Assembly (NCBI RefSeq): GCF_029635795.1
Contig: NZ_CP114280.1
Coordinates: 868,001 to 932,000 of the forward strand
Length of the DNA: 64,000 nt
Direction: 5' to 3'
From: Dickeya lacustris
GTDB taxonomy: Bacteria > Pseudomonadota > Gammaproteobacteria > Enterobacterales > Enterobacteriaceae
Made by a program: the position numbers and the translations under genes. Under the pieces are notes generated by a model. That model did no database searches, was not told where the DNA came from, and saw only the letters and a list, made by a program, of their open reading frames with translations. Shown here piece after piece: positions 39,826 through 55,300 of this stretch; the stretch's first letter is position 1; each line of letters begins with the position of its first letter.

Positions 39826-40610
39826 CCCTGTCCCTGGACGTACCGGCACGCCTTAACGCTGGCACACCGGTGTTGATTGACGGCGTGAGCAAACGCTATG
39901 GCGCACGCACCATCCTCAACGACATTCACCTGCACATCCCAGCCGGGCAGTTTATTGCCGTGGTCGGGCGCAGCGGTTGCGGCAAAAGCACCCTGTTGCG
40001 CCTGCTGGCCGGTCTGGAGTCGGCAAGCGCCGGTGCGCTGCTGGCGGGCAGCGCGCCGTTACAGCAGGCGCGTGACGACATTCGGCTAATGTTTCAGGAA
40101 GCGCGCTTATTACCCTGGAAACGGGTGCTGGATAACGTCGGCCTCGGGTTACGCGGCGACTGGCGCACCGCCGCGCATCAGGCGCTGGACGCCGTCGGGC
40201 TGGCATCACGCGCGGCCGACTGGCCTGCGGCGCTCTCCGGCGGGCAAAAACAGCGGGTGGCGCTGGCACGTGCATTGATCCATCGCCCCGGCTTGCTGCT
40301 ACTCGATGAGCCGCTGGGCGCGCTGGATGCGCTGACCCGCATTGAGATGCAGGGGCTCATTGAATCACTCTGGCTACAGCACGGTTTTACCGTATTACTG
40401 GTCACGCACGACGTCAGCGAAGCCGTCGCCCTCGCTGACCGGGTGATTCTGATTGAAGAAGGCCGCATCGGGCTTGATGTCACGATTGACCTGCCGCGCC
40501 CGCGCCGCCGTGGTTCCGCCCGGCTGGCAGAGCTGGAAGCACAGGTGCTGGAGCGGATACTGACGCCGGTGGCTCGCGCGACACAGCCCGCACCTCAGCG
40601 CGTTGGTTGA
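39822..40610 (+). CDS. ssuB: Aliphatic sulfonate ABC ATPase SsuB
   Basis: A 262-residue ATPase: Walker [18 protein letters not shown]-loop [19 protein letters not shown], signature [16 protein letters not shown], Walker [13 protein letters not shown] and the switch His in [15 protein letters not shown] 39822 has GGAGG upstream and overlaps the ssuC stop; the longer frame from 39777 lies inside ssuC. Last gene of the operon, followed by a terminator. Confidence 0.95.
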
Positions 40611-40675: not shown

Positions 40676-43129
40676 TTAAAGCGGATAATCGAAACGGTAA
40701 ATACGTCCGTTCTCATTTAACGCCGCCACCTGCGCCAGTGCATCCTGCTCGCTGTAGCCAAATTCGTTCATCAGCACGGTAAACAGATGATAAAACTCCC
40801 CTTTCATATCGGTGACAAAAATCCCCTGATCGTCAGATCCTAATGCCACCGACATAGGATGATCGCCTGCAACATAACGCTCGGGAAGATGCATCCAGCG
40901 GAATACATGGTGCTGGGTAATATCCTCGTAATAACTGATCCTGACATTGCTGGTCGGCAGCGTTTCAATCACTATGTGTTTTTCACGCACCCGCTTTTGC
41001 ACGTATTGCTGTGCAGCAAGCAGAGTACTGTCAGGCAGAAAATCGGTGTCGAACTCGGCGGAGGCTTCATACCGCGTGATCACGTCTGCATCAAACCAGC
41101 GCTGTTTCAGCAATATCAACGCCTCTTTGCCATAGCGTTTTGCAAACTCACCGACCCGCTCGAACTCTTCTCCCAGCCAGCCCACCGGCCTGTCCGTCTT
41201 ATCTTGCAGATAATTTCGCACCTGTATGGGGTCAAGCCCGCGACCGTCAAAAAAGATCTGTAACACGACGATGGAAGGGTGCTGTGCAAAAATCCGGTAC
41301 GCCAGCATCGCAATTTCGCTATCCAGCCGTACCAGCGATAAATCGCTGCCCTCTCGCTGCTCCAGTAACAACTTGCGTACAAACAGCAGGTTTTCCAGCC
41401 ATTCGCCTTGCTTAATGAACAACGTCTCCGGCATTTTCGTACGCCAAAACGTCGGCATAATACCAATCGCCGTAGCGTGACCGATGCGATCGCCATTCGA
41501 TAACTCCAGCAGCGTCAGGCTGTCATAGACGGCGCGAATGCCACTGATCAGATGTTCAAAATCCTCCCCGGCGTGGTAGGTGAAATGGGCGATACCCTGA
41601 CGGCGTGCCTGACGAAAAAGCACGGCGAACACTTCCGGTGGAGCCTCGCGCTCATTGGCGGCGGCATCAAACCCGGTAAGCAGCGAGCGCAACGCCGGAA
41701 ACGCCTCCAACACCTGAAATAATGCATGAGCACGCATCAACACATCTTCACGTAGTGCGCTGAAATGGGAAGAGCCATCACGATAATCCCAGTGACGTTT
41801 GATGAAATGCACCACCAGCCGTAGCGCCGGACGTGTCGCGCCAAGACAGGCTTGTGCCAGCGCATTTAACTCCGGTGGCTTATCAAGCGATGACGCACTC
41901 GGGTTCTGGTAGTCCCAAAACCCGTCAAGGATACGCGTGATCAGTTGCTTATTCTTATCGGACGTGTCTTTCGGCGCAAAACGCCCTTCAATCGTCGCCA
42001 TCATCGATGTGCCCGATGCCCGCTCACCATGTAACTGATAAAAACGGGCAGCATAGCGTTCTTCTATCGGCTCACGTGGACCTAACTCGGTAAATTTCTG
42101 GAACTGATCAAAACCTATCTGATCGGTGCGCTGCACCAGCAAACGCTGAAACAGGTTCATGCATAGCAAATACAGCCAATAGCAGGCATCTTCCGTCGCC
42201 GACGGATGAGCGCGCAACGCATGTAACACCCGGATATGAAAATGCAGCTCGCACAGGCCCTGATACTGTTGTGGCTGGGCATATGCCGCCTGTTCCCAGG
42301 CAAAAAAGCCCGCGTCGGGAGCGACAATATCGTCACAGCGCAGCAAGTCAGCAAAGTGCTGTTTTGCCGGTTTACCCTCACACGCCGGGTGATACCGACC
42401 TTCGGCCCAGCGTAGTAGCCACTCGCGGCAATAACGCGCGATATGCAGCATACGGCTCACTTTAATCGGGGTATCCAGCGAGTGAGCTACGGCATAAAAG
42501 CGCCGCAATCGGGTAGGGTCATCCTTACGGCTTTTCTCCATTTCATTAATCAGCGCATCGGGATGCAGCAGGCTGTGATGCCACATCAGTTCCACAAAGG
42601 TGGTGCCGTTAAGGTGCATATGCGCTTCATGCAACCCTTCGTGTTGCAGATAATCCTCAACGCGTGGATGCCAGGGCGACACAATTGGCCGGTAACCCAA
42701 CGTCTGCTTCAGCCGAGCCAGCAATTCAAACAACGGTGGGCACGTCTTGCCGCACCACATCTGCTCCAGTTGATAAGCGATAACCGGGAAACCAGATTGA
42801 TTCGCCACCCAGTTTTGCCACTCGCCAAAGCGCGACTGGCGCACCGCCAGCCGACGCTGGTCTTCGTCCAGATGGTAGCGAGCCGCCTGCCCAAGCAACG
42901 CCCTGCACCACCCTTTGGCTTCACGCTGACGTGACAGCAAGTGATCCCAGTGGCGCTCAAACATCGGGTCGGTATGGGTAAACTGACGCTGATACCAACT
43001 GTTATAGGTCACGGCTTCGATGTCTTTTTCCGGCAAAGTCGAGCGCTCACCCGACAGCAACAACGGCAGTTGCGTCAGCAAAAGCTCATACAACCGGGGC
43101 TCCGCAAGAAGGTATTGGTTGAGAAACAT
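40676..43129 (-). CDS. rdrB: RADAR adenosine deaminase RdrB
   Basis: An 817-residue protein with a divergent adenosine/AMP deaminase barrel inside a much longer chain. Metal-site motifs in family order: HEAHMHLNGT (His170, His172), YHAGEDFEHL (His519, Glu522), GDRIGHATAIG (His551) and LGSDDQGIF (Asp766, Asp767). Ordinary adenosine deaminases are about 330-350 residues; the long N-terminal region and insertion match RdrB of RADAR. There it assembles into a large cage and deaminates adenosine (reported as A-to-I RNA editing and ATP/dATP-to-ITP conversion) during phage infection. It follows rdrA by 31 bp on the same transcript. Base composition resembles the host. The start is preceded by a weak AAGG. 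Purine catabolism is unlikely given the partner. Confidence 0.9.
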   Translation of the reverse strand: MFLNQYLLAEPRLYELLLTQLPLLLSGERSTLPEKDIEAVTYNSWYQRQFTHTDPMFERHWDHLLSRQREAKGWCRALLGQAARYHLDEDQRRLAVRQSRFGEWQNWVANQSGFPVIAYQLEQMWCGKTCPPLFELLARLKQTLGYRPIVSPWHPRVEDYLQHEGLHEAHMHLNGTTFVELMWHHSLLHPDALINEMEKSRKDDPTRLRRFYAVAHSLDTPIKVSRMLHIARYCREWLLRWAEGRYHPACEGKPAKQHFADLLRCDDIVAPDAGFFAWEQAAYAQPQQYQGLCELHFHIRVLHALRAHPSATEDACYWLYLLCMNLFQRLLVQRTDQIGFDQFQKFTELGPREPIEERYAARFYQLHGERASGTSMMATIEGRFAPKDTSDKNKQLITRILDGFWDYQNPSASSLDKPPELNALAQACLGATRPALRLVVHFIKRHWDYRDGSSHFSALREDVLMRAHALFQVLEAFPALRSLLTGFDAAANEREAPPEVFAVLFRQARRQGIAHFTYHAGEDFEHLISGIRAVYDSLTLLELSNGDRIGHATAIGIMPTFWRTKMPETLFIKQGEWLENLLFVRKLLLEQREGSDLSLVRLDSEIAMLAYRIFAQHPSIVVLQIFFDGRGLDPIQVRNYLQDKTDRPVGWLGEEFERVGEFAKRYGKEALILLKQRWFDADVITRYEASAEFDTDFLPDSTLLAAQQYVQKRVREKHIVIETLPTSNVRISYYEDITQHHVFRWMHLPERYVAGDHPMSVALGSDDQGIFVTDMKGEFYHLFTVLMNEFGYSEQDALAQVAALNENGRIYRFDYPL

Positions 43130-43160
43130 GTTGGGCCTTATTGGTTATCTGGTTGTGGGG

Positions 43161-45998
43161 CTACTGTTGTTTTTTCTTTGATGTTGATGATGTATCTTCT
43201 TTTGGTGTTATAAAACATCCAGAAACAGGCAAACGGGAAATATATAAATAATTATCTTCCGAAGGTGTGTTACTTTTCTGAGTTATTTGCACATCGTTAA
43301 TTTCCTCAATAGAATATAAGTTGCCCAACAATCCAGTGGATAAAATCATCTGGTACAGTTTTTCTCTATCTTTTTTCCTGCCGCCTTTTATTTCCCATAA
43401 TGTGATTTTTTTATTTCCCAAACCTACCTGACAAAAAGAGGAGGGTTTCAAGTCAGGCAATAAGAAGGGTAAAATTAGCGGGCAGCGAATGATTGCGCTG
43501 GTTACTGGCAGGAAATCAGAGAATTTAAATTGATTACTTTTATTCTCTGTTTTTTTATTGTGCGAATTAATAAAGCCAATAACGCGATTTATATTATTGA
43601 TTAACTCTCTGGGAGAAATAGCCGTGTTTTTAGCAGAAGCGAATCGCTTTACCAATTTTTCAGGGATATCTGGATTGTAATTAACTTCTTCTATCAAAAA
43701 AGAATTTATTACCCCAAAAACAAATGATGAGAAAAGATGACCGAGAAGAATGTCTTCTTTTTTGCTTCCTTCTTCACCTTTATATGAAAATTTCTTGCCA
43801 GAAAAATCTTTTGATGCAGAAAGCAATGTATACTGAACTCTCTCCCAGATTTTCCCCATCAGTAAGGATGAACAACTTATTTCGCTAGTTTTTTTCCATT
43901 CTGTTATTTTATCATTCAGAATATCTATAAAAATATTTTCTGAATCTTGCGTATTATCATCATCCGTATCATCCGTATCATCCGTATCATCCGTATCATC
44001 CGCTTTATCCTTTGTCTCTTTGTCTCTATTTAGGAAAGCTGGATAACCGAATGTCTGTACTGAAATAAAACGCTCAACAGAATAATTACTATTTTTGTCC
44101 AGCAATCGAGCCATCACCGCCAGCAAGCTAAAGACAGAAATATAATCTCTTTTTTCTGCCCCTTCCTGAACGCTGCTGGCCGAGGCCAGAATAGTCACTG
44201 CCGCGACGACATCAATATAGTTATGGTTCACTTTCGCTAAATTTCTGGAAAGCCAATCTAACGAGCTTATCACGTCACCGTCTTCCCATCCCGTTAGGGC
44301 TTTGAATCTCTCTTTAATAAGATTATTTCTTCTTCTATTGACTCTTATCACTCCACCATGAATTTTTTTTGATATACTCCCATGTTCATGGAAAATTATC
44401 GGGTTACAATGCGCCGCCACCCCCGTCACGTTTTCACCACGGGTTAACCCAAGATACTCAACATACGCTCTTGGCAGATTACTAACCTCTTTTTCTTTTT
44501 CAGCCAAATAGTGCATATAGACATTGGCTGGCATTGCACTGGTGAACATAAAAGTCAACGCATTTGATAATGTATTTTCTTTTAAAAACCGGCTAACGAG
44601 CATTGTGAGATACATTTTCGCCGCGTTATAAGCGCCATCATCACTATCAGGTCGCAAATAAAAACCGGTTTCCAGATCGCCATGCCGATGGCACACATTA
44701 AATATTGCACAGGCAATTTTATTAAAATCTTTAACCCCTTCTTCCGATAGGTCATCATCGATCCCCTGATCAATAAACTCCCCCAAAAAAATACGCTTCA
44801 ATGCAGATATTATCGTTTCCGTTAACTTAGAGAGTTCATTCAATTCGCCATTCTGATTGACAGGCATCATTCTTAAAAACTGCACAACCGTTCTTATTGG
44901 CTGAGAAAGAATAAAATTCCGAAAATACTCTTGCTGATCTTTTTTTACCTTCAGCGAGAGGGAGATAATATCAAACAAAAAATCTGGCGACTGCCCATCC
45001 GTGTGTGGATCAGAACCTTCAATCCCCTTGTACTTTTTACCATTTCTTGAAAAAAATACGCGTCTCTGTTGGCTTTCAAATAATTTAATCAACAACTGCA
45101 AATCGATGCGTTGATGTGCAGGAAAAACTTTTAGCATATACTGCTGAGTTAAGTGAAGGATCAAATCCCTAGATTCTTTTTCATCACTTTCTTTTTCATC
45201 ACCCGACTGTAACTCAATCTTTTTTTGATTTTTGACAATGTAATTGTACAGTTTTAAATCCCCTGAAATCAGCACCACCACTCTGGGGTGGTTCAAATAG
45301 CGGCGGATAGTTTCCAGAACCTCATAAGCTTTTTGCGTATGGGTATCAACATCATCAATAGCGATAATAAATAATTCTTTATTTAACACCTCGGCAATTT
45401 CATTAATAAAGCGATGTAATCGTTCTTCCAAATACTGTCCACTTTTGGCACTTTTCAACGCCTGACTTAAGAACCAGCCATCATCATGCTTATCATGGTT
45501 TTCTTTATGGTGACTGGCAAGTTTCAGCCCTTCCGCCATCTCTTCAAGGCATTTATTCAGTCGCTGATTTTTCTCTTCATCCACACAATACTTAAGCTTG
45601 CTGTCATAGAGTTGTTTAAATTTCACGACAATATCAATCAGGATATTTTGATGTGTCTCAATTAACGTTGGGTCTATAAAAGCCAGAGGGAAAACACCAT
45701 TCTTTTCCTCAGAATAGCAATTCAACATTGCTCTTATGAATGTAGTTTTACCAGTGCCTCGCTGGCCATTAATAAAAATGGTATTATTTTTACGAATTAT
45801 TTCGCCTGGAAAACCATCACTATTCGGCTGACATGACTTTTCTTTATTATATTCTTTCACATCTTCAACAAAACCCTTCATCAAATCATCTAACTGCCCT
45901 TTCGCTGCATATTGCAGCATGGAGCTTACCTCATACTTATTTAAATCAAATACATTATCGAGATCAATAATAACCTCACTAATACTTTCATTACTCAT
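43161..45998 (-). CDS. rdrA: RADAR ATPase RdrA
   Basis: A 945-residue cytosolic protein with a STAND/AAA-like P-loop module: Walker A GQRGTGKT at about 78-85, Walker B LFIIAIDDVDTH at about 209-220, and a sensor-like VVVLISGD at about 240-247. The long C-terminal region has no recognised domain. Size, ATPase motifs and pairing with an RdrB-type deaminase identify RdrA, the ring ATPase that docks on RdrB and is needed for phage defence. ATG 45998 has GGAG 5 nt upstream; the GTG two codons earlier overlaps it. An acidic DDT repeat (about residues 666-680) is encoded by a 9-bp microsatellite. The gene is far more AT-rich than its neighbours, a sign of transfer. Confidence 0.9.
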   Translation of the reverse strand: MSNESISEVIIDLDNVFDLNKYEVSSMLQYAAKGQLDDLMKGFVEDVKEYNKEKSCQPNSDGFPGEIIRKNNTIFINGQRGTGKTTFIRAMLNCYSEEKNGVFPLAFIDPTLIETHQNILIDIVVKFKQLYDSKLKYCVDEEKNQRLNKCLEEMAEGLKLASHHKENHDKHDDGWFLSQALKSAKSGQYLEERLHRFINEIAEVLNKELFIIAIDDVDTHTQKAYEVLETIRRYLNHPRVVVLISGDLKLYNYIVKNQKKIELQSGDEKESDEKESRDLILHLTQQYMLKVFPAHQRIDLQLLIKLFESQQRRVFFSRNGKKYKGIEGSDPHTDGQSPDFLFDIISLSLKVKKDQQEYFRNFILSQPIRTVVQFLRMMPVNQNGELNELSKLTETIISALKRIFLGEFIDQGIDDDLSEEGVKDFNKIACAIFNVCHRHGDLETGFYLRPDSDDGAYNAAKMYLTMLVSRFLKENTLSNALTFMFTSAMPANVYMHYLAEKEKEVSNLPRAYVEYLGLTRGENVTGVAAHCNPIIFHEHGSISKKIHGGVIRVNRRRNNLIKERFKALTGWEDGDVISSLDWLSRNLAKVNHNYIDVVAAVTILASASSVQEGAEKRDYISVFSLLAVMARLLDKNSNYSVERFISVQTFGYPAFLNRDKETKDKADDTDDTDDTDDTDDDNTQDSENIFIDILNDKITEWKKTSEISCSSLLMGKIWERVQYTLLSASKDFSGKKFSYKGEEGSKKEDILLGHLFSSFVFGVINSFLIEEVNYNPDIPEKLVKRFASAKNTAISPRELINNINRVIGFINSHNKKTENKSNQFKFSDFLPVTSAIIRCPLILPFLLPDLKPSSFCQVGLGNKKITLWEIKGGRKKDREKLYQMILSTGLLGNLYSIEEINDVQITQKSNTPSEDNYLYISRLPVSGCFITPKEDTSSTSKKKQQ
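43959..44003. repeat. 9-bp microsatellite inside rdrA
   Basis: ATCATCCGT occurs four times without change (43959-43994), with a fifth unit differing at its last base (43995-44003). On the coding strand it encodes repeated Asp-Asp-Thr. Copy changes would keep the reading frame. Confidence 0.95.
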
Positions 45999-46063
45999 AA
46001 ACACTCCATGCCATTAAATTATATTGAAATAACAAAGCAGATAATCTTATTTTACGGTCGCAG

Positions 46064-46091
46064 TTATTACACTCAGATAATTGAATGTCAA
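46064..46091 (-). promoter_or_regulatory. Promoter of the rdrAB operon
   Basis: On the minus strand a consensus TTGACA (complement of 46086-46091), a 16-bp spacer and TAATAA (complement of 46064-46069), about 65 bp upstream of the rdrA ATG. It lies downstream of the pepN terminator, so rdrAB is an independent transcription unit. Confidence 0.75.
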
Positions 46092-46154
46092 TAAAAGCAG
46101 GATAGGTGGCAGGCGATATAACTAACCGAATGGCTATAATGTGATGGAATTAAA

Positions 46155-46176
46155 AAAGCCGGGAATTTCCCGGCTT
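46155..46176 (-). terminator. pepN terminator
   Basis: AAAGCCGGGAA pairs with TTCCCGGCTTT as an almost loopless palindrome; on the minus strand a run of Ts follows. It lies 43 bp past the pepN stop and insulates rdrAB from pepN read-through. Confidence 0.85.
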
Positions 46177-46218
46177 TGAGGGTAAGCGAATAAATAACCC
46201 ATCCTTGATGTTTGAACC

Positions 46219-48834
46219 TTACGCATCCAGCGCTTTCGTGATTTTCTCGAACAGATCGCCGGAGAGGTTTTCCAGCCCTTTGAGGGTTTCCAGCGCCTGG
46301 CGCATCAGCGCCTGACGCGCTGAATCGTAACGCTTAAGGCGGATTAACGGTTCGATCAGGCGCGAGGCCACCTGCGGGTTGCGGGTGTTCAGTTCGGTCA
46401 GCATGTCGGTGAGAAACTGATAGCCGCTGCCGTCTTTGGCGTGAAAGGCGGATGGATTACCGGCACAGAAGCCGCCGACCAGCGAGCGCACCCGGTTGGG
46501 GTTGCCAAGGCTAAATGAGCGGTGGTTAAGCAAGTCGCGTACCCGCGCCTGCACGTCGGCGGCCGGGCTGCTGGCTTGCAACATAAACCATTTGTCCATC
46601 ACCAGACCATCCTGATGCCAGCGCTCGTCAAAATCCGCCAGCAGCGTATCGGCACAAGGCAACTGCGCGGCCACGGCCGCACTCATTGCCGCCAGCGAAT
46701 CCGTCATGTTATCCGCACTCTGGAACTGCGCCATGACCGACTTATCCGCCTCGGCGCGATCGGCAAAGGCCAGATAGCTGAGGCAGAGATTACGCAGCGC
46801 GCGTTTGCCCATATCGTGTTGGTCAACGCGGTATTGCGCGAGCTTATTGGCGCGATACACCGCCAGCAGTTCATCCGCCATCTCATCGGCCAGCGTTTGC
46901 ACCAGCATCTGGCGCACAGCGGCTATCGCATCCGGGTCAATCACCTCAAACAGCTCGGCCATTTCGTTTTCGCTCGGCAACGACAAGATTTGTGCTGCCA
47001 GCATCGGGTCAAGCGTTTCATCCAGCAACACGCCCCGGAACGCATCGACCACATGCAGCGGCAGCGACAGCGGCTGTTGTTGCTGGTGGCACGCCACATT
47101 CAGGCGAATATAGTTGCCGAGCAGACTTTGTGCCGCATCCCAGCGCGAGAAGGCATTGCTGGCATGGCGCATCAGGAAGGTGAGCTGTTCATCGCGCCAC
47201 GGGTAATTGAGTTTTACCGGTGCCGAAAACTCACGCAGCAGTGACGGCACCGGCTGGCAAGGTACATCGTCAAACACGAAGGTTTGCTCCGCTGCGGTGA
47301 CATTGAGCACCGCCCCCAGCGCCTGCCCCTTCTGGCGCAGCGCAATCACCCGGCCTTCGGTATCATACAACTCAACATCCAGCGGAATATGCAGCGGCAG
47401 CTTGTCTTGCTTATCCGCGCCAACCGGCGTCATCTGGCTGACATGCAAGCGGTACTGGCGGGTCGCTGCGTCATACTCGTCGCTCACGGTCACAACCGGC
47501 GTACCCGACTGGCTGTACCAGCGGCGGAACTGCGATAAATCGACGCTTGAGGCGTCTTCCATCGCCTGCACGAAGTCATCACAGGTGGCGGCGCTGCCGT
47601 CATGGCGGTCAAAATAGAGCCGCATCCCCGCCTGGAATTTTTCTTCGCCCAGCAAGGTGTGCATCATACGGATCACTTCCGAGCCTTTTTCATACACCGT
47701 CAGGGTGTAGAAGTTATTCATCTCGATGACTTTGTCCGGGCGAATGGGGTGCGACATCGGGCTGGCGTCTTCGGCGAACTGCGCGCCGCGCATCACCCGC
47801 ACGTTATCAATGCGATTCGCCGGGCGGGAACCGACGTCGGAGCTGAACTCCTGATCGCGAAATACCGTCAGCCCCTCTTTGAGGCTCAACTGGAACCAGT
47901 CGCGGCAAGTGACGCGGTTGCCGGTCCAGTTATGGAAATATTCGTGGGCGATGACCGCTTCGATACCGAGATAGTCTTTATCGGTGGCGGTTTCGGCTTT
48001 CGCCAGCACATACTTGGAGTTGAAAATGTTCAACCCTTTGTTTTCCATTGCCCCCATGTTGAAGAAGTCCACCGCCACAATCATATAGATGTCGAGGTCG
48101 TACTCCAGGCCAAAACGGGTTTCATCCCATTTCATGGCGTTTTTCAACGAGGTCATGGCCCAGTCAGCGCGATCGAGATTGCCGCAATCGACAAACAGTT
48201 CCAGCGCCACATCACGGCCTGAACGGGTGACAAAAGTATCGCGCAGCACATCAAAATTACCGGCCACCAACGCAAACAGATAACAGGGTTTCGGGAACGG
48301 ATCTTGCCATTCGACCCAGTGGCGGCCATCATCCAGCTCGCCTTGCGCCACGCGGTTGCCGTTAGAGAGCAGATACGGGTAGCGGGCTTTCTGTGCCGTA
48401 ATGCGGGTGGTAAAACGCGCCAGCACATCCGGCCTATCCAGATAATAGGTGATATGACGGAAGCCTTCTGCTTCACACTGGGTACACAACGCCTCGCCAG
48501 ACTGATAGAGCCCTTCCAGCGCGCTGTTCGCCGCCGGGTTTATCTGTGTTTCAATACGTAGCGTGAACGCCTCCGGCACGCCAGAGAGCTCAAGCGCCCC
48601 GGCGATTTCTCGATAATCGGCCCACGCCTGACCATCGACCTGCACACTCACCAGCGTCAACCCTTCGCCATCAAGCCGTAATGTCGCGCCTTTTTCTCCC
48701 TGCAACACCACCTGACTGGTCGCCACCACATGGGTGTGCTCTGCATCAAGCGTAAAATCCAGTGCGATGTCGGTGATGGTGTAATCCGGCGCGCGGTAGT
48801 CGTGCCGATATTTTACTTGTGGTTGTTGACTCAT
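46219..48834 (-). CDS. pepN: Aminopeptidase N (M1 family)
   Basis: An 871-residue zinc metallopeptidase (E. coli 870). The exopeptidase motif GAMENKG precedes the zinc site HEYFHNW with the second Glu in the following KEGLTVFRDQEF stretch (HExxH-x18-E), all near residues 260-325. It starts MSQQPQVKYRHDYRAPDYTI. It degrades peptides released by ATP-dependent proteases. Divergent from pncB; in E. coli ssuB is its direct downstream neighbour, but here rdrAB intervenes. Confidence 0.98.
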   Translation of the reverse strand: MSQQPQVKYRHDYRAPDYTITDIALDFTLDAEHTHVVATSQVVLQGEKGATLRLDGEGLTLVSVQVDGQAWADYREIAGALELSGVPEAFTLRIETQINPAANSALEGLYQSGEALCTQCEAEGFRHITYYLDRPDVLARFTTRITAQKARYPYLLSNGNRVAQGELDDGRHWVEWQDPFPKPCYLFALVAGNFDVLRDTFVTRSGRDVALELFVDCGNLDRADWAMTSLKNAMKWDETRFGLEYDLDIYMIVAVDFFNMGAMENKGLNIFNSKYVLAKAETATDKDYLGIEAVIAHEYFHNWTGNRVTCRDWFQLSLKEGLTVFRDQEFSSDVGSRPANRIDNVRVMRGAQFAEDASPMSHPIRPDKVIEMNNFYTLTVYEKGSEVIRMMHTLLGEEKFQAGMRLYFDRHDGSAATCDDFVQAMEDASSVDLSQFRRWYSQSGTPVVTVSDEYDAATRQYRLHVSQMTPVGADKQDKLPLHIPLDVELYDTEGRVIALRQKGQALGAVLNVTAAEQTFVFDDVPCQPVPSLLREFSAPVKLNYPWRDEQLTFLMRHASNAFSRWDAAQSLLGNYIRLNVACHQQQQPLSLPLHVVDAFRGVLLDETLDPMLAAQILSLPSENEMAELFEVIDPDAIAAVRQMLVQTLADEMADELLAVYRANKLAQYRVDQHDMGKRALRNLCLSYLAFADRAEADKSVMAQFQSADNMTDSLAAMSAAVAAQLPCADTLLADFDERWHQDGLVMDKWFMLQASSPAADVQARVRDLLNHRSFSLGNPNRVRSLVGGFCAGNPSAFHAKDGSGYQFLTDMLTELNTRNPQVASRLIEPLIRLKRYDSARQALMRQALETLKGLENLSGDLFEKITKALDA

Positions 48835-49384: not shown

Positions 49385-49428
49385 TTAAACAAGATTGCCT
49401 TGAGCAAGGCAGCCTTAAACAAAATTGC
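49385..49428 (+). repeat. Direct repeat in the pncB leader
   Basis: TTAAACAAGATTGC (49385-49398) and TTAAACAAAATTGC (49415-49428), one mismatch, 30 bp apart, flank the stem GCCTT-GAGC-AAGGC. This lies within 70 bp of the pncB start; a regulator or mRNA structure is possible. It does not fit the NadR dyad. Confidence 0.6.
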
Positions 49429-49454
49429 ATGAAACGAGGATGCGGGAACGCATT

Positions 49455-50660
49455 ATGACTTTACACACCTCCCCGATACTGACCTCATTGCTGGATACCG
49501 ATGCTTATAAATTGCACATGCAGCAAGCGGTATATCATCATTATCGTGATGTTCATGTTGCAGCGGAATTTCGCTGCCGTGGCGATGAGTTACTGGGGGT
49601 CTATGCCGATGAAATTCGTGCTCAAATAGACGCCATGAGTCAGTTATCGCTGCGTGATGACGAATATGCTTATCTCGCATCGTTGCCGTTCTTTCAACCT
49701 GACTACCTCAACTGGCTGAAAACGTTCCGTTTTAACCCGGCCCACATTCAGGTCAGTCAACACCAGGGCAAGCTGGACATCCGCATCACCGGCCCATGGC
49801 ACGAAGTGATTTTATGGGAAGTGCCGTTGCTGGCGGTGATCAGTGAAGTGGTACATCAGGCGCGCCACCCCGGAAATTATCGCGATGCCGCCCTCGCGCA
49901 ATTGCACCATACTCTGAGCGAATTTCGCACCCTCAGCCAGGATGTGGATTTACGTGACTTCCGCCTGATGGATTTCGGCACTCGCCGCCGCTTCTCGCGC
50001 AGCGTACACCACGACATTGTGCGCACGCTCAACGATCACTTTCCCTGGCTTATCGGCACCAGCAACTATTTTCTGGCGCATCAATTCGCATTGACGCCCG
50101 TCGGCACACAGGCCCATGAGTGGTTCCAGGCCCATCAACAAATCAGCCCGACACTGGCCAACAGCCAGCGCGCCGCGCTGGATGCCTGGCTGCGCGAATA
50201 CCCGCATCAACTGGGTATCGCACTGACGGATTGCATCACCATGGATGCTTTCCTGCGTGACTTTGACAAACGTTTCGCCGAGCGTTACCAAGGTTTACGC
50301 CATGACTCAGGCGACCCTATCGAATGGGGTGAAAAAGCCATCGCCCATTACCGGGCTTTAGGCATAGACCCGATGAGCAAAACGCTTGTGTTCTCCGATA
50401 ACCTCAATCTGGCAAAAGCGTTACACCTCTACCGCCACTTCCAGCAGCGCATTCCGGTTGTATTTGGTATCGGCACGCGCCTGACCTGTGACATCCCCGG
50501 CGTTAAACCGCTTAATATCGTCATCAAATTAGTGGAATGCAACGGCAAACCGGTGGCGAAATTATCAGACAGCCCCGGAAAAACCATCTGCCAGGATCAG
50601 GCCTTCGTCAGCGAGCTGCGTAAAGCCTTCGATTTACCGCGCATTAAAAAAGCGTCCTGA
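49455..50660 (+). CDS. pncB: Nicotinate phosphoribosyltransferase
   Basis: A 401-residue NAD-salvage enzyme (E. coli 400) forming nicotinate mononucleotide from nicotinate and PRPP with ATP. It starts [20 protein letters not shown] at ATG 49455, matching the family. [12 protein letters not shown] carries the region with the phosphorylatable His environment; [40 protein letters not shown] and [20 protein letters not shown] are diagnostic. Upstream asnS order matches E. coli. Confidence 0.97.
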
Positions 50661-52418: not shown

Positions 52419-52527
52419 AACACGCAACTGAATGGAACACTGCGTGCAGACACAGGAAGACAACTGTATCGACAATAAAGTTCCCAACGGGTTTTTGAAT
52501 TGTGATGCAGGTGTCTTATATAACACC

Positions 52528-52549
52528 AATGAGGGTAATAATGATGAAG
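52528..52549 (+). promoter_or_regulatory. MicF-type sRNA target at the ompF start
   Basis: AATGAGGGTAATA followed by ATGATGAAG is almost identical to the E. coli ompF translation-initiation region that pairs with MicF sRNA. The micF gene itself is not in this window. Confidence 0.6.
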
Positions 52550-53611
52550 CGCAATATTCTTGCAGTGGTAATCCCGGCTCTGTTAGCTGCTGGTGCAGCG
52601 AATGCAGCTGAAGTGTACAACAAAGACGGCAACAAGCTGGATTTGACTGGTAAAATCGAAGCTGCCCATTATTTTGGCGATGAGTCCAAAAGTGTCATGG
52701 GTGACGGCGACCAGACCTTTGCTCGTCTGGGCTTCAAAGGTGAAACCAAAATCAATAGCGATCTGACCGGTTATGGTCGTTTTGAGTATGAATTTAACGC
52801 AAGCTCTGCTGAAGATACTAACAGCGCTGATGGTAAAACCCGTTACGCATATGCTGGCTTGAAATTCGGTGACTTAGGCTCACTGGATTACGGCCGTAAC
52901 CGTGCCGTTGGCTATGATGGTCTGTCTTACACTGACGTACTGCCAGAACAGGGTGGTGATTCTGTCTACACCGACAACATCACTGGCCGTAACGCTGGCG
53001 TTGCAACCTACCGTAACAAAAACTTCTTCGGCCTGGTAGATGGCTGGGACTTCGCGCTGGGTTATCAGGCCAAGCACGACGGCTCTACACAGTACAGAAA
53101 AAATACCGGTGATGGCTGGGCGGTCTCTTCTTCTTATACCGCACCGTTTGGCGTTGGCGTGATCGGTTCTTACACTGCTGCTGATCGTACTGACAAACAG
53201 ACTGCTGATAATCGCGGTAAAAAGGCTGAAGCGTGGGCAACTGGCCTGAAATATGACGCTAACAACGTCTATGTGGCTACCACCTACGGTGAATACCACA
53301 ACCTGTCTTATAAAAACGCTACTGCTACTTCTGCTTACGACAAAACTAAAGTGTTTGAAGCCGTTGCTCAGTACAACTTCGATTTCGGCCTGACCCCGTC
53401 TTTAGGTTATGTTAGTGCCAAAGCAGATGACGATACCGCAAACACCAGCGGCTACCTGAAGAAATATGTCAGCATCGGCGCTACCTATGCATTCAACAAA
53501 AACTTCTCTACTCTGGTTGAGTACGATATCAACCTGATCAAAGATGACAGCAACCAGCTCGGTGTTAAAACTGGTAACACTGTAGCAGTCGGTGCAATTT
53601 ATCAGTTCTAA
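52541..53611 (+). CDS. ompF: OmpF-type general porin, copy 1
   Basis: A 356-residue trimeric outer-membrane porin precursor. The signal peptide MMKRNILAVVIPALLAAGAA ends NAA, and the mature form starts AEVYNKDGNKLDLTGK. Sixteen-strand barrel features include DQTFARLGFKGETKINSDLT, the constriction-loop region ending in LPEQGGDS, and the terminal Phe (AVGAIYQF) for BAM recognition. The asnS-ompF-aspC context is as in E. coli. The in-frame start at 52502 would add an unlikely leader. A near-identical N-terminus recurs in copy 2. Confidence 0.95.
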   Translation: MMKRNILAVVIPALLAAGAANAAEVYNKDGNKLDLTGKIEAAHYFGDESKSVMGDGDQTFARLGFKGETKINSDLTGYGRFEYEFNASSAEDTNSADGKTRYAYAGLKFGDLGSLDYGRNRAVGYDGLSYTDVLPEQGGDSVYTDNITGRNAGVATYRNKNFFGLVDGWDFALGYQAKHDGSTQYRKNTGDGWAVSSSYTAPFGVGVIGSYTAADRTDKQTADNRGKKAEAWATGLKYDANNVYVATTYGEYHNLSYKNATATSAYDKTKVFEAVAQYNFDFGLTPSLGYVSAKADDDTANTSGYLKKYVSIGATYAFNKNFSTLVEYDINLIKDDSNQLGVKTGNTVAVGAIYQF

Positions 53612-54196: not shown

Positions 54197-54220
54197 AATG
54201 AGGGTAATTTAATGATGAAG
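54197..54220 (+). promoter_or_regulatory. MicF-type target at the second porin start
   Basis: CAATGAGGGTAATTT followed by AATGATGAAG matches the copy 1 initiation region, so both mRNAs are expected to answer to the same sRNA. Confidence 0.55.
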
Positions 54221-55300
54221 CGTAATATTCTGGCCGTGGTGATACCGGCACTGTTGGCAGCAGGCGCAGCCAACGCCGCAGAGGTGTACAACAAAGATGG
54301 CAATAAGCTTGATTTAACCGGCAAACTGCACGCCGGTTATTATTTCGGTGATACAGCCAAAAGCTTTGAAGGTAAAGGCGATCAAACCTATGCCCGCTTA
54401 GGTTTTAAAGGCGAAACCAAGATTAATGACGATCTGACCGGTTATGGTCGCTTTGAATATCACTTTGATGCCAGTAACGCAGAAGACACTAACAGCCTTC
54501 CTTCTGGGAGCAATGGCAACGGCAGCAAAACCCGTTATGCTTATGCTGGCCTGAAATTCGGTAACTTCGGCTCTTTTGATTATGGTCGCAATAAAGGCAT
54601 CGCTTATGACGGTATCTCTTATACCGACGTACTGCCAGAGTGGGGTGGCGACCAAGGCTATACCGATAACATTACCGGGCGCAGTGCTGGTGTTGCGACC
54701 TATCGCAACAAGAACTTCTTCGGCCTGGTGCAGGGCTGGGATTTTGGCCTGCAATATCAGGCGAAACATGCAGACTCCACCGCACCTAAAAAACAGACCG
54801 GTGACGGCTTTGGTATTTCCTCTTCCTATACGTCGCCGATTGGCGTAGGCGTGATTGCCTCTTATGAAGCGGTAGACCGCACCACCTCACAGGTAGCCGA
54901 TGGCCGTGGCCAGAAGGCGGACGCCTGGGCTGCCGGCCTGAAGTATGATGCCAACAATATCTACCTTGCCACCACCTACGGTGAGTATCACAACCTGAGC
55001 TATGTTGGCAGCGTTGCACTGGATAAAACCAAAGTGTTCGAAGCCGTTGCCCAGTACCACTTTGACTTTGGTTTAACGCCGTCTCTGGCGTATGTTTCCG
55101 CTAAAGCTGATAACGACACGTCCGCCGTGAAAACCAGCGGTTATATCACTAAATACGTCAGCATCGGCGGGACATATAACTTCAATAAGAACCTGGCGGC
55201 TAACGTCGAGTATCTGGTCAACCTGATTGATGCAGACAGCAACCCGTACGGTAAGAAAACGGGTAACAGCGTCTTTACCGGCCTGACCTACCAGTTCTAA
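54212..55300 (+). CDS. OmpF/OmpC-type general porin, copy 2
   Basis: A 362-residue porin precursor whose signal peptide equals that of copy 1 and whose mature chain is a close paralogue: GDQTYARLGFKGETKINDDL, GVATYRNKNFFGLVQGWDFG and terminal GLTYQF. It differs from copy 1 mainly in the surface loops (for example the SLPSGSNGNGSKT insertion) and the Lys/Asp content around the constriction loop (LPEWGGDQG). Tandem duplication 600 bp downstream of copy 1, with its own promoter and terminator. Divergence in loops suggests different selectivity or phage/antibody exposure. Confidence 0.93.
   Translation: MMKRNILAVVIPALLAAGAANAAEVYNKDGNKLDLTGKLHAGYYFGDTAKSFEGKGDQTYARLGFKGETKINDDLTGYGRFEYHFDASNAEDTNSLPSGSNGNGSKTRYAYAGLKFGNFGSFDYGRNKGIAYDGISYTDVLPEWGGDQGYTDNITGRSAGVATYRNKNFFGLVQGWDFGLQYQAKHADSTAPKKQTGDGFGISSSYTSPIGVGVIASYEAVDRTTSQVADGRGQKADAWAAGLKYDANNIYLATTYGEYHNLSYVGSVALDKTKVFEAVAQYHFDFGLTPSLAYVSAKADNDTSAVKTSGYITKYVSIGGTYNFNKNLAANVEYLVNLIDADSNPYGKKTGNSVFTGLTYQF

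Follow-up and report, generated by a model that had tools for sequence, protein, structure and literature searches.

A RADAR operon in Dickeya lacustris with an exchanged RdrA C-terminal region, a likely recognition module

Introduction

What are the two adjoining genes that lie on the minus strand between ssuB and pepN in Dickeya lacustris, and which part of them would decide when they act? They fall within a 64,000-nucleotide stretch (contig NZ_CP114280.1, positions 868,001 to 932,000, here called the window) of a 4,367,773-base single-contig genome, and an earlier note, made from the sequence alone, had read them as a RADAR-type anti-phage system, rdrAB. RADAR itself is already known, and the window locus is a further RADAR. 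We think it likely that it is a complete system of the clade that holds the solved RADAR structures, with RdrB as an effector producing inosine triphosphate (ITP) and its deoxy form (dITP), RdrA as its activator, and a recombined C-terminal part of RdrA (the C-part) as the likely recognition module.

Identity of the operon

The gene rdrA (43161..45998, minus strand) encodes the AAA+ ATPase of RADAR, with 945 amino acids (aa) from an ATG at 45998, and rdrB (40676..43129, minus strand) encodes the adenosine-deaminase-fold effector, with 817 aa. A GTG at 46004 is an alternative rdrA start and gives an open reading frame (ORF) of 947 aa (43161-46004); judged by eye, the ATG is the better start, having GGAG 5 nt upstream. 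RdrA residue numbers below are those of the 947-aa version (945-aa number plus 2). The motifs that the earlier note had listed for its 945-residue P-loop ATPase and 817-residue deaminase-like protein are all present on the minus strand. RdrA has Walker A GQRGTGKT (45744..45767, residues 80-87) and Walker B LFIIAIDDVD (45345..45374, residues 211-220), and RdrB has, in this order, HMHLNG (42605..42622, zinc ligands H170 and H172), HAGE (41564..41575, zinc ligand H519 and catalytic E522), RIGHA (41474..41488, H551, which is H530 in E. coli) and SDD (40829..40837, residues 765-767).

Duncan-Lowey et al. (PMC9994260) name the zinc, catalytic, Walker A, Walker B, sensor 1 (D253) and sensor 2 (R377) residues of E. 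coli RADAR. Because these align on or beside the motifs, the motifs are not chance occurrences. In RdrB, H170, H172, H519, H551 and E522 correspond to E. coli H152, H154, H498, H530 and E501, and the zinc histidines and catalytic glutamate are identical in all 33 aligned loci (of the loci that we label L, L007, L010 and L015 were left out of this alignment and of the RdrB tree). In RdrA, G85 K86 T87, D217 D218, D249 and R371 correspond to G81 K82 T83, D221 D222, D253 and R377; the Walker, sensor 1 and sensor 2 residues are identical in 33/33 loci, except for T83, which is T or S and identical in 21/33.

Profile and structure searches, which the earlier note had proposed as a check, agree with its reading. 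RdrA and RdrB are the best-matching names for the two proteins in both NCBIfam and PADLOC (NF041743/NF041744; PDLC02216-PDLC02219). Using phmmer against solved structures, RdrB matches E. coli RdrB with 441 bits over residues 31-813, and RdrA matches E. coli RdrA with 178 bits over residues 39-851. Single-chain AlphaFold models (mean predicted local distance difference test score 81.8 for RdrA and 91.0 for RdrB) have RADAR chains as their best Foldseek matches, with template modelling scores of 0.80/0.85 to 8hr7_E and 0.84/0.87 to 8hr7_M for RdrB, and 0.73/0.82 to 8hr8_A for RdrA; adenosine deaminases and other AAA+ proteins rank far below. By sequence and by predicted fold, the full-length matches of both proteins among solved structures are RADAR proteins only. 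The best structural matches are therefore RADAR rather than housekeeping deaminases or unrelated ATPases, and RdrA adjoins RdrB on the same strand in all 26 scored loci, the window included.

E. coli RADAR (PDB 8fnt, 8fnv, 8fnw, 8hr7-8hrc) and the window locus have the same two-gene order, folds, zinc tetrad and catalytic glutamate, and have Walker A/B, sensor 1, sensor 2 and a large RdrB clade in common, but Foldseek identity is only 31-33% for RdrB and 18-20% for RdrA. The interfaces count against the identification. The crown and three-fold interface residues considered were those mutated in the E. coli work (PMC9994260): RdrA K150/E151/R162 are N146/Q147/E158 in the window, and RdrB E595-E597 are A615/Q616/H617, in a poorly aligned stretch. 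These residues are poorly kept generally, with K150, E151 and R162 identical in 11, 11 and 9 of the 33 loci and E595, E596 and E597 in 6, 13 and 11, and L081, which is RADAR by its RefSeq name, keeps only K150 among them.

A housekeeping adenosine deaminase next to an unrelated ATPase would fit the Pfam A_deaminase match to RdrB (41 bits), but we give that reading almost no chance: the matches over full length are RADAR proteins, the genome has its own adenosine deaminase at 408862-409833 (377 bits), and the locus is patchily distributed (2/9 genus genomes). The full-length matches together with the separate deaminase rule it out. Membership of RADAR is near certain, and the earlier identification of an rdrAB locus between ssuB and pepN is borne out by sequence, residues and predicted folds.

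The locus also appears complete with two genes. ssuB, on the plus strand, ends at 40610 and pepN, on the minus strand, ends at 46219, leaving gaps of 65 bp (ssuB-rdrB) and 214 bp (rdrA-pepN), both too short to hold another gene of the usual size; short same-strand ORFs 3' of rdrB extend into ssuB antisense. Related loci L086 and L087 share the rdrA-rdrB core and have a gene with four transmembrane segments after rdrB (by crude hydropathy), which in L087 is RdrD (NF041745, 284.1 bits versus a cut-off of 230), whereas the window has no such gene. The description of the locus as a minimal RADAR without rdrD therefore stands. Cad1, a CARF-fused effector of type III CRISPR, also has the adenosine-deaminase fold and is reported to convert ATP to ITP (PMC11645235), but the window has no CARF or CRISPR match, only a weak local one to PDLC01908 (41.7 bits).

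A mosaic rdrA

The conserved ATPase core of RdrA (45096..45998, minus strand, residues to ~303) holds Walker A/B, the crown insertion, sensor 1 and a conserved HLxQQYxxKxxPxxxRI motif. Beyond the core, which ends near residue 303 in the model, come sensor 2 and a lobe made mostly of helices. This following region (43164..45095, minus strand, residues ~304-947, with sensor 2 R371) is the variable, exchangeable part and our proposed recognition module. Within it lies a (DDT)n acidic linker encoded by a perfect 9-bp x 4.9 tandem repeat (43959..44002, minus strand); model confidence is low there, and a change in repeat copy number would keep the frame.

Comparing the window with G006, a genome of a second species of the genus with the same type of RADAR at the same site, protein identity is 99.4% for RdrB, 84.7% for RdrA residues 1-275 and 66.4% for the RdrA C-part. 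At the DNA level, in 200-base bins, rdrB is 96.5-99.5% identical and the near flanks mostly 88-97%, versus 66-84% across 43.2-45.2 kb of rdrA. Synonymous divergence (dS) is 0.060 for rdrB, 0.532 for rdrA 1-275 and 1.390 for rdrA 276-947; five nearby genes give 0.178 (ssuB), 0.340 (ssuC), 0.166 (ssuD), 0.274 (pepN) and 0.302 (asnS). Because synonymous sites have diverged as well, selection at the amino-acid level is not enough to account for the contrast and an allele has been replaced; the operon thus combines a recently shared effector with a much older rdrA allele. A further gene, pncB (49425-50660), is an outlier with a dS of 0.886, and its region may also have recombined.

Alleles that change their nearest relative along their length give a more direct view. 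We aligned 65 RdrA and 58 RdrB sequences, from 120 listed matches each, and examined triples of alleles. For example, L079 (E. coli W284) has 767 deciding sites; up to residue 282, 89% of them agree with L072, but beyond it 23% do, the remainder agreeing with L076 (0/5000 permutations). In L068 the nearest relative changes at residue 274, from L069 (match 80% before, 15% after) to L070 (0/5000 permutations). For the window RdrA itself the change, from P0127 to P0122, falls at residue 224 (0/5000 permutations), while other Dickeya alleles join the core of P0136 to a window-type C-part (P0122, break at 228) or the core of P0134 to the C-part of P0129 (P0131, break at 300). These Dickeya triples head a list of 907 that switch at their best point, from at most 1365, ranked without a threshold or correction; it is their effect sizes (6% versus 95%) that carry the case. 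Since one allele matches different relatives before and after a single point, a difference in rate cannot explain the switch. On the evidence of the sequences, the RdrA C-part has been exchanged by recombination.

The groupings of Dickeya alleles follow the same pattern. Over residues 1-225, the 15 full-length Dickeya RdrA (the short P0132 and P0133 were left out here and from the triples) all fall into a single group at 75% identity and into six groups at 88%; over residues 304-947 they make up seven groups at 75% and four at 60%. Among the matches listed, many of them without an organism name, Dickeya-named sequences fall at 90% identity into two RdrB clusters (28 and 3 members) versus 16 RdrA clusters (29 members). 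Judging by these counts, one RdrB cluster, that with 28 members, seems to serve most of the 16 RdrA clusters.

Exchange in other RADAR groups

We then compared groups of close relatives, picked by hand from the 26 loci with both genes, the E. coli loci and seven further loci. To count as a group, loci had to share 80% or more RdrB identity without being near-identical, and exchange meant a RdrA C-part at least 25 points below RdrB in at least one pair. The near-identical pairs L005/L007, L079/L080 and L081/L082 were excluded from the tally, as was L078, which has no whole RdrB; L010 (same contig as L071) and L015 (partial RdrB) were left out of the 26-locus comparison. The point dividing the N-terminal part from the C-part varies by comparison (275 of the window, 330 of L072, 300 of L068).

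RdrB and the ATPase core are kept and the C-part is very different in 5/8 groups, one of them being the window and G006. Identities for RdrB, RdrA N-terminal part and RdrA C-part are 94.9/92.7/59.4 in Dickeya L068/L069, 96.7/84.7/64.9 in the Paludibacteraceae metagenome-assembled genomes L012/L013, 89.1/93.3/47.6 in E. coli MSI001/W284 (the Enterobacteriaceae group) and 87.0/86.7/55.8 in L086/L087; in the latter, rdrD-bearing type, the RdrA C-part is much more variable than RdrB. The five groups span three RdrB types (solved clade, NCBI-named and rdrD-bearing) and two phyla, Paludibacteraceae belonging to the Bacteroidota.

Could the C-part instead be a scaffold under little constraint, drifting more quickly, so that its contrast with RdrB is a difference in rate? 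The RdrA C-part is less similar than RdrB in 324/325 pairs, some unswapped pairs too diverge more at the far C-terminus, and conservation outside the RdrA ATPase is described as limited family-wide (PMC9994260). We nevertheless judge drift very improbable, since synonymous divergence is raised too (0.06 for rdrB, 1.39 for the C-part), alleles change nearest relative at a breakpoint, and some unswapped pairs inside exchange groups are about equally similar throughout (86.8/90.0/87.4 for L068/L070 and 89.3/92.1/86.8 for L072/L075). Because such unswapped pairs diverge alike throughout, the C-part need not have a much faster clock, and a faster clock as the sole cause is ruled out by dS, the triple tests and these pairs. 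As a separate observation, the RdrA of G007 (L070, 11085-13442) is ~80 residues shorter than its relatives, has a 213-bp gap before rdrB and is possibly truncated.

Several results weigh against a tidy exchange of the C-part alone. Three of the eight groups lack clear exchange: RdrB versus C-part identity is 85.7 versus 72.8 in L006/L016, 81.1 versus 75.5 in L002/L003, and 97.4 versus 99.2 in L073/L090 (the L090 RdrB being partial). The reverse pattern also occurs, RdrB being 70.7% identical versus 85.3% for the RdrA ATPase part in L084/L085. Most top-ranked breaks (224-306) lie in the interval between Walker B and the point where the ATPase core ends, but those at 224-251 fall inside the core, and others scatter to 366 (L070 as child) and ~480 (pair profiles of L068/L069 and L012/L013); there is therefore more than one exchange point. 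Pair-wise break tests are unspecific, with the unswapped L072/L075, L072/L074, L006/L016 and L002/L003 also giving small permutation counts. No positive selection by point mutation is visible in the window-G006 C-part, where the ratio of nonsynonymous to synonymous divergence is 0.16. In the Enterobacteriaceae group, rdrB triples switch too (31/56 versus 25/60 for rdrA; 12 versus 16 with 0/1000 permutations), although the best chi-squared value is 40 versus 321 for rdrA, and the Dickeya group has one strong rdrB switch, at the final residues (88 versus 162 for rdrA). rdrB thus recombines as well, with only strength separating rdrA from it.

What the exchanged part may do

By homology with published relatives, the RdrB dodecamer would deaminate ATP to ITP and dATP to dITP, and the RdrA AAA+ heptamer would dock over the RdrB active site and switch RdrB on during infection; as in those relatives, activation would stop phage growth. 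The earlier note had the effector acting on adenosine in RNA or nucleotides. The nucleotide half of this agrees with Duncan-Lowey et al. (PMC9994260), who favour conversion of ATP/dATP to ITP/dITP; the RNA half is disfavoured as the main activity. That RdrB mainly edits adenosines in RNA loaded by RdrA, as first proposed, is echoed in PDB entries whose titles describe RdrA rings ‘in RNA-loading state’, but we consider it improbable: the same authors detected conversion of ATP to ITP but no broad editing of RNA, and after RADAR chains the RdrB fold next matches adenosine deaminases of small substrates.

In the operons compared, the region of RdrA that follows the ATPase core is swapped by recombination between otherwise closely similar operons while RdrB and most of the core stay. 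Because of this, the exchanged part is most likely the recognition module and may decide which phage signal fires RADAR. What RADAR senses is an open question in the discussion of PMC9994260, which suggests the unique C-terminal domain of RdrA as the phage sensor and counts sensor 2 to the ATPase; the exchanged part includes that proposed domain plus sensor 2. A sensing role for the C-part is something we infer. We lean slightly towards a broader reading in which RADAR is a modular immune receptor, its C-part being a recognition domain traded between strains and species, with each class serving a different phage signal.

The chief rival is that the C-part varies because phage inhibitors bind there, so that exchange would be escape from inhibition and not altered sensing. 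Exchange and old divergent alleles suit any arms-race surface, and the two cannot be separated by sequence alone, but Duncan-Lowey et al. (PMC9994260) suspect the C-terminal region as sensor, and we regard inhibitor escape as rather unlikely. Natural operons that combine a similar effector and core with differing C-parts already amount to swap experiments, and a comparison of their phage ranges would test where the sensor lies and lead to the trigger.

The target-recognition domains of HsdS and the sensor regions of Avs are exchangeable specificity modules. They resemble RADAR in having a fixed core and a swapped recognition part, but the proteins and chemistry are different, so this is an analogy only. 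Among the literature matches listed, which cover few subscription journals, none reports exchange of the RdrA C-part or a Dickeya RADAR, although such a report may exist elsewhere.

Clade and database naming

One FastTree phylogeny of 33 RdrB (midpoint root) unites the window and G006 with L001 from Halomonas and L071 from Proteus (support 1.000). This group in turn joins the E. coli type, along with several loci from Pseudomonas and Burkholderiales (support 0.966). The NCBI-named and rdrD-bearing types stand apart on a long branch (support 1.000). The RADAR named in NCBIfam and PADLOC gives the best library matches to the window RdrA and RdrB and yet belongs to a separate RdrB clade; it is probably the Citrobacter rodentium type.

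The window falls far under the NCBIfam cut-offs (RdrB 119.5 versus 800; RdrA 190.3 versus 600). The RdrB cut-off is cleared by L068 (955 bits) and L087 (990 bits) but not by L077 (118.6) or L072 (115.9). L077, from E. coli, represents the solved E. coli RdrB here, matching it with 1855 bits over residues 1-799. Because this full-length match also fails, the cut-off is a database threshold and not a defining trait of RADAR. Four RefSeq E. coli rdrB of the solved type are named ‘adenosine deaminase’, ‘hypothetical protein’ or ‘amidohydrolase family protein’, so the clade holding the solved structures seems under-annotated. RADAR counts made with the NCBIfam RdrB cut-off are likely too low, because the tested RdrB of the solved clade (window, L072 and L077) miss it.

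Distribution and insertion site

The window type of RADAR occurs in 2/9 genus genomes (window and G006), both at the same site, and another type lies elsewhere in the genome in 3/9 (G002, G005 and G007). The ssuB-pepN distance is 5.5-5.6 kb in the window and G006, versus 132-152 bp in the seven genomes without RADAR there. No target duplication was seen by eye; the empty sites have a different, common terminator, and the whole intergenic stretch differs.

Beyond the genus, the window RdrA is matched in 16/392 family genomes (E <= 1e-10), and in a wider sample of the class, RdrB is found at E <= 1e-20 in 1/369 genomes, the window's own. Among the matches listed, the closest named proteins to both are from Dickeya, mainly D. 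chrysanthemi. A search of 5,426 E. coli genomes with a solved-type rdrB query found four with at least 80% covered; the L068 rdrB matched in 23, none over 80%, and three of those 23 records were fetched. No match was found in 50,697 phage records, and the seven in 72,556 plasmid records are all below 60% identity. In E. coli 1303 (L078, 6007-8406), rdrB is annotated as two ORFs, and E. coli ET826 (L083, 6144-6908), one of the three fetched, has only a 3' remnant beside IS1; given this split and this remnant, RADAR appears to decay in some E. coli strains.

Expression and neighbouring features

A terminator-like hairpin 3' of pepN (46155..46177, minus strand) separates pepN from rdrA, and the AT-rich rdrA leader (46005..46154, minus strand) holds a TTGACA hexamer, seen by eye. 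A promoter scan called none in the leader on the minus strand. Because of the hairpin and leader, rdrAB is probably transcribed from its own promoter.

Within the operon, guanine-plus-cytosine content is 36.8% for rdrA versus 53.7% for rdrB, and rdrB is the higher in 28/29 loci (L007 and L010 left out). Elsewhere in the window, two similar outer-membrane-porin-like genes, read from their translations, stand in tandem at 52502-53611 and 54212-55300.

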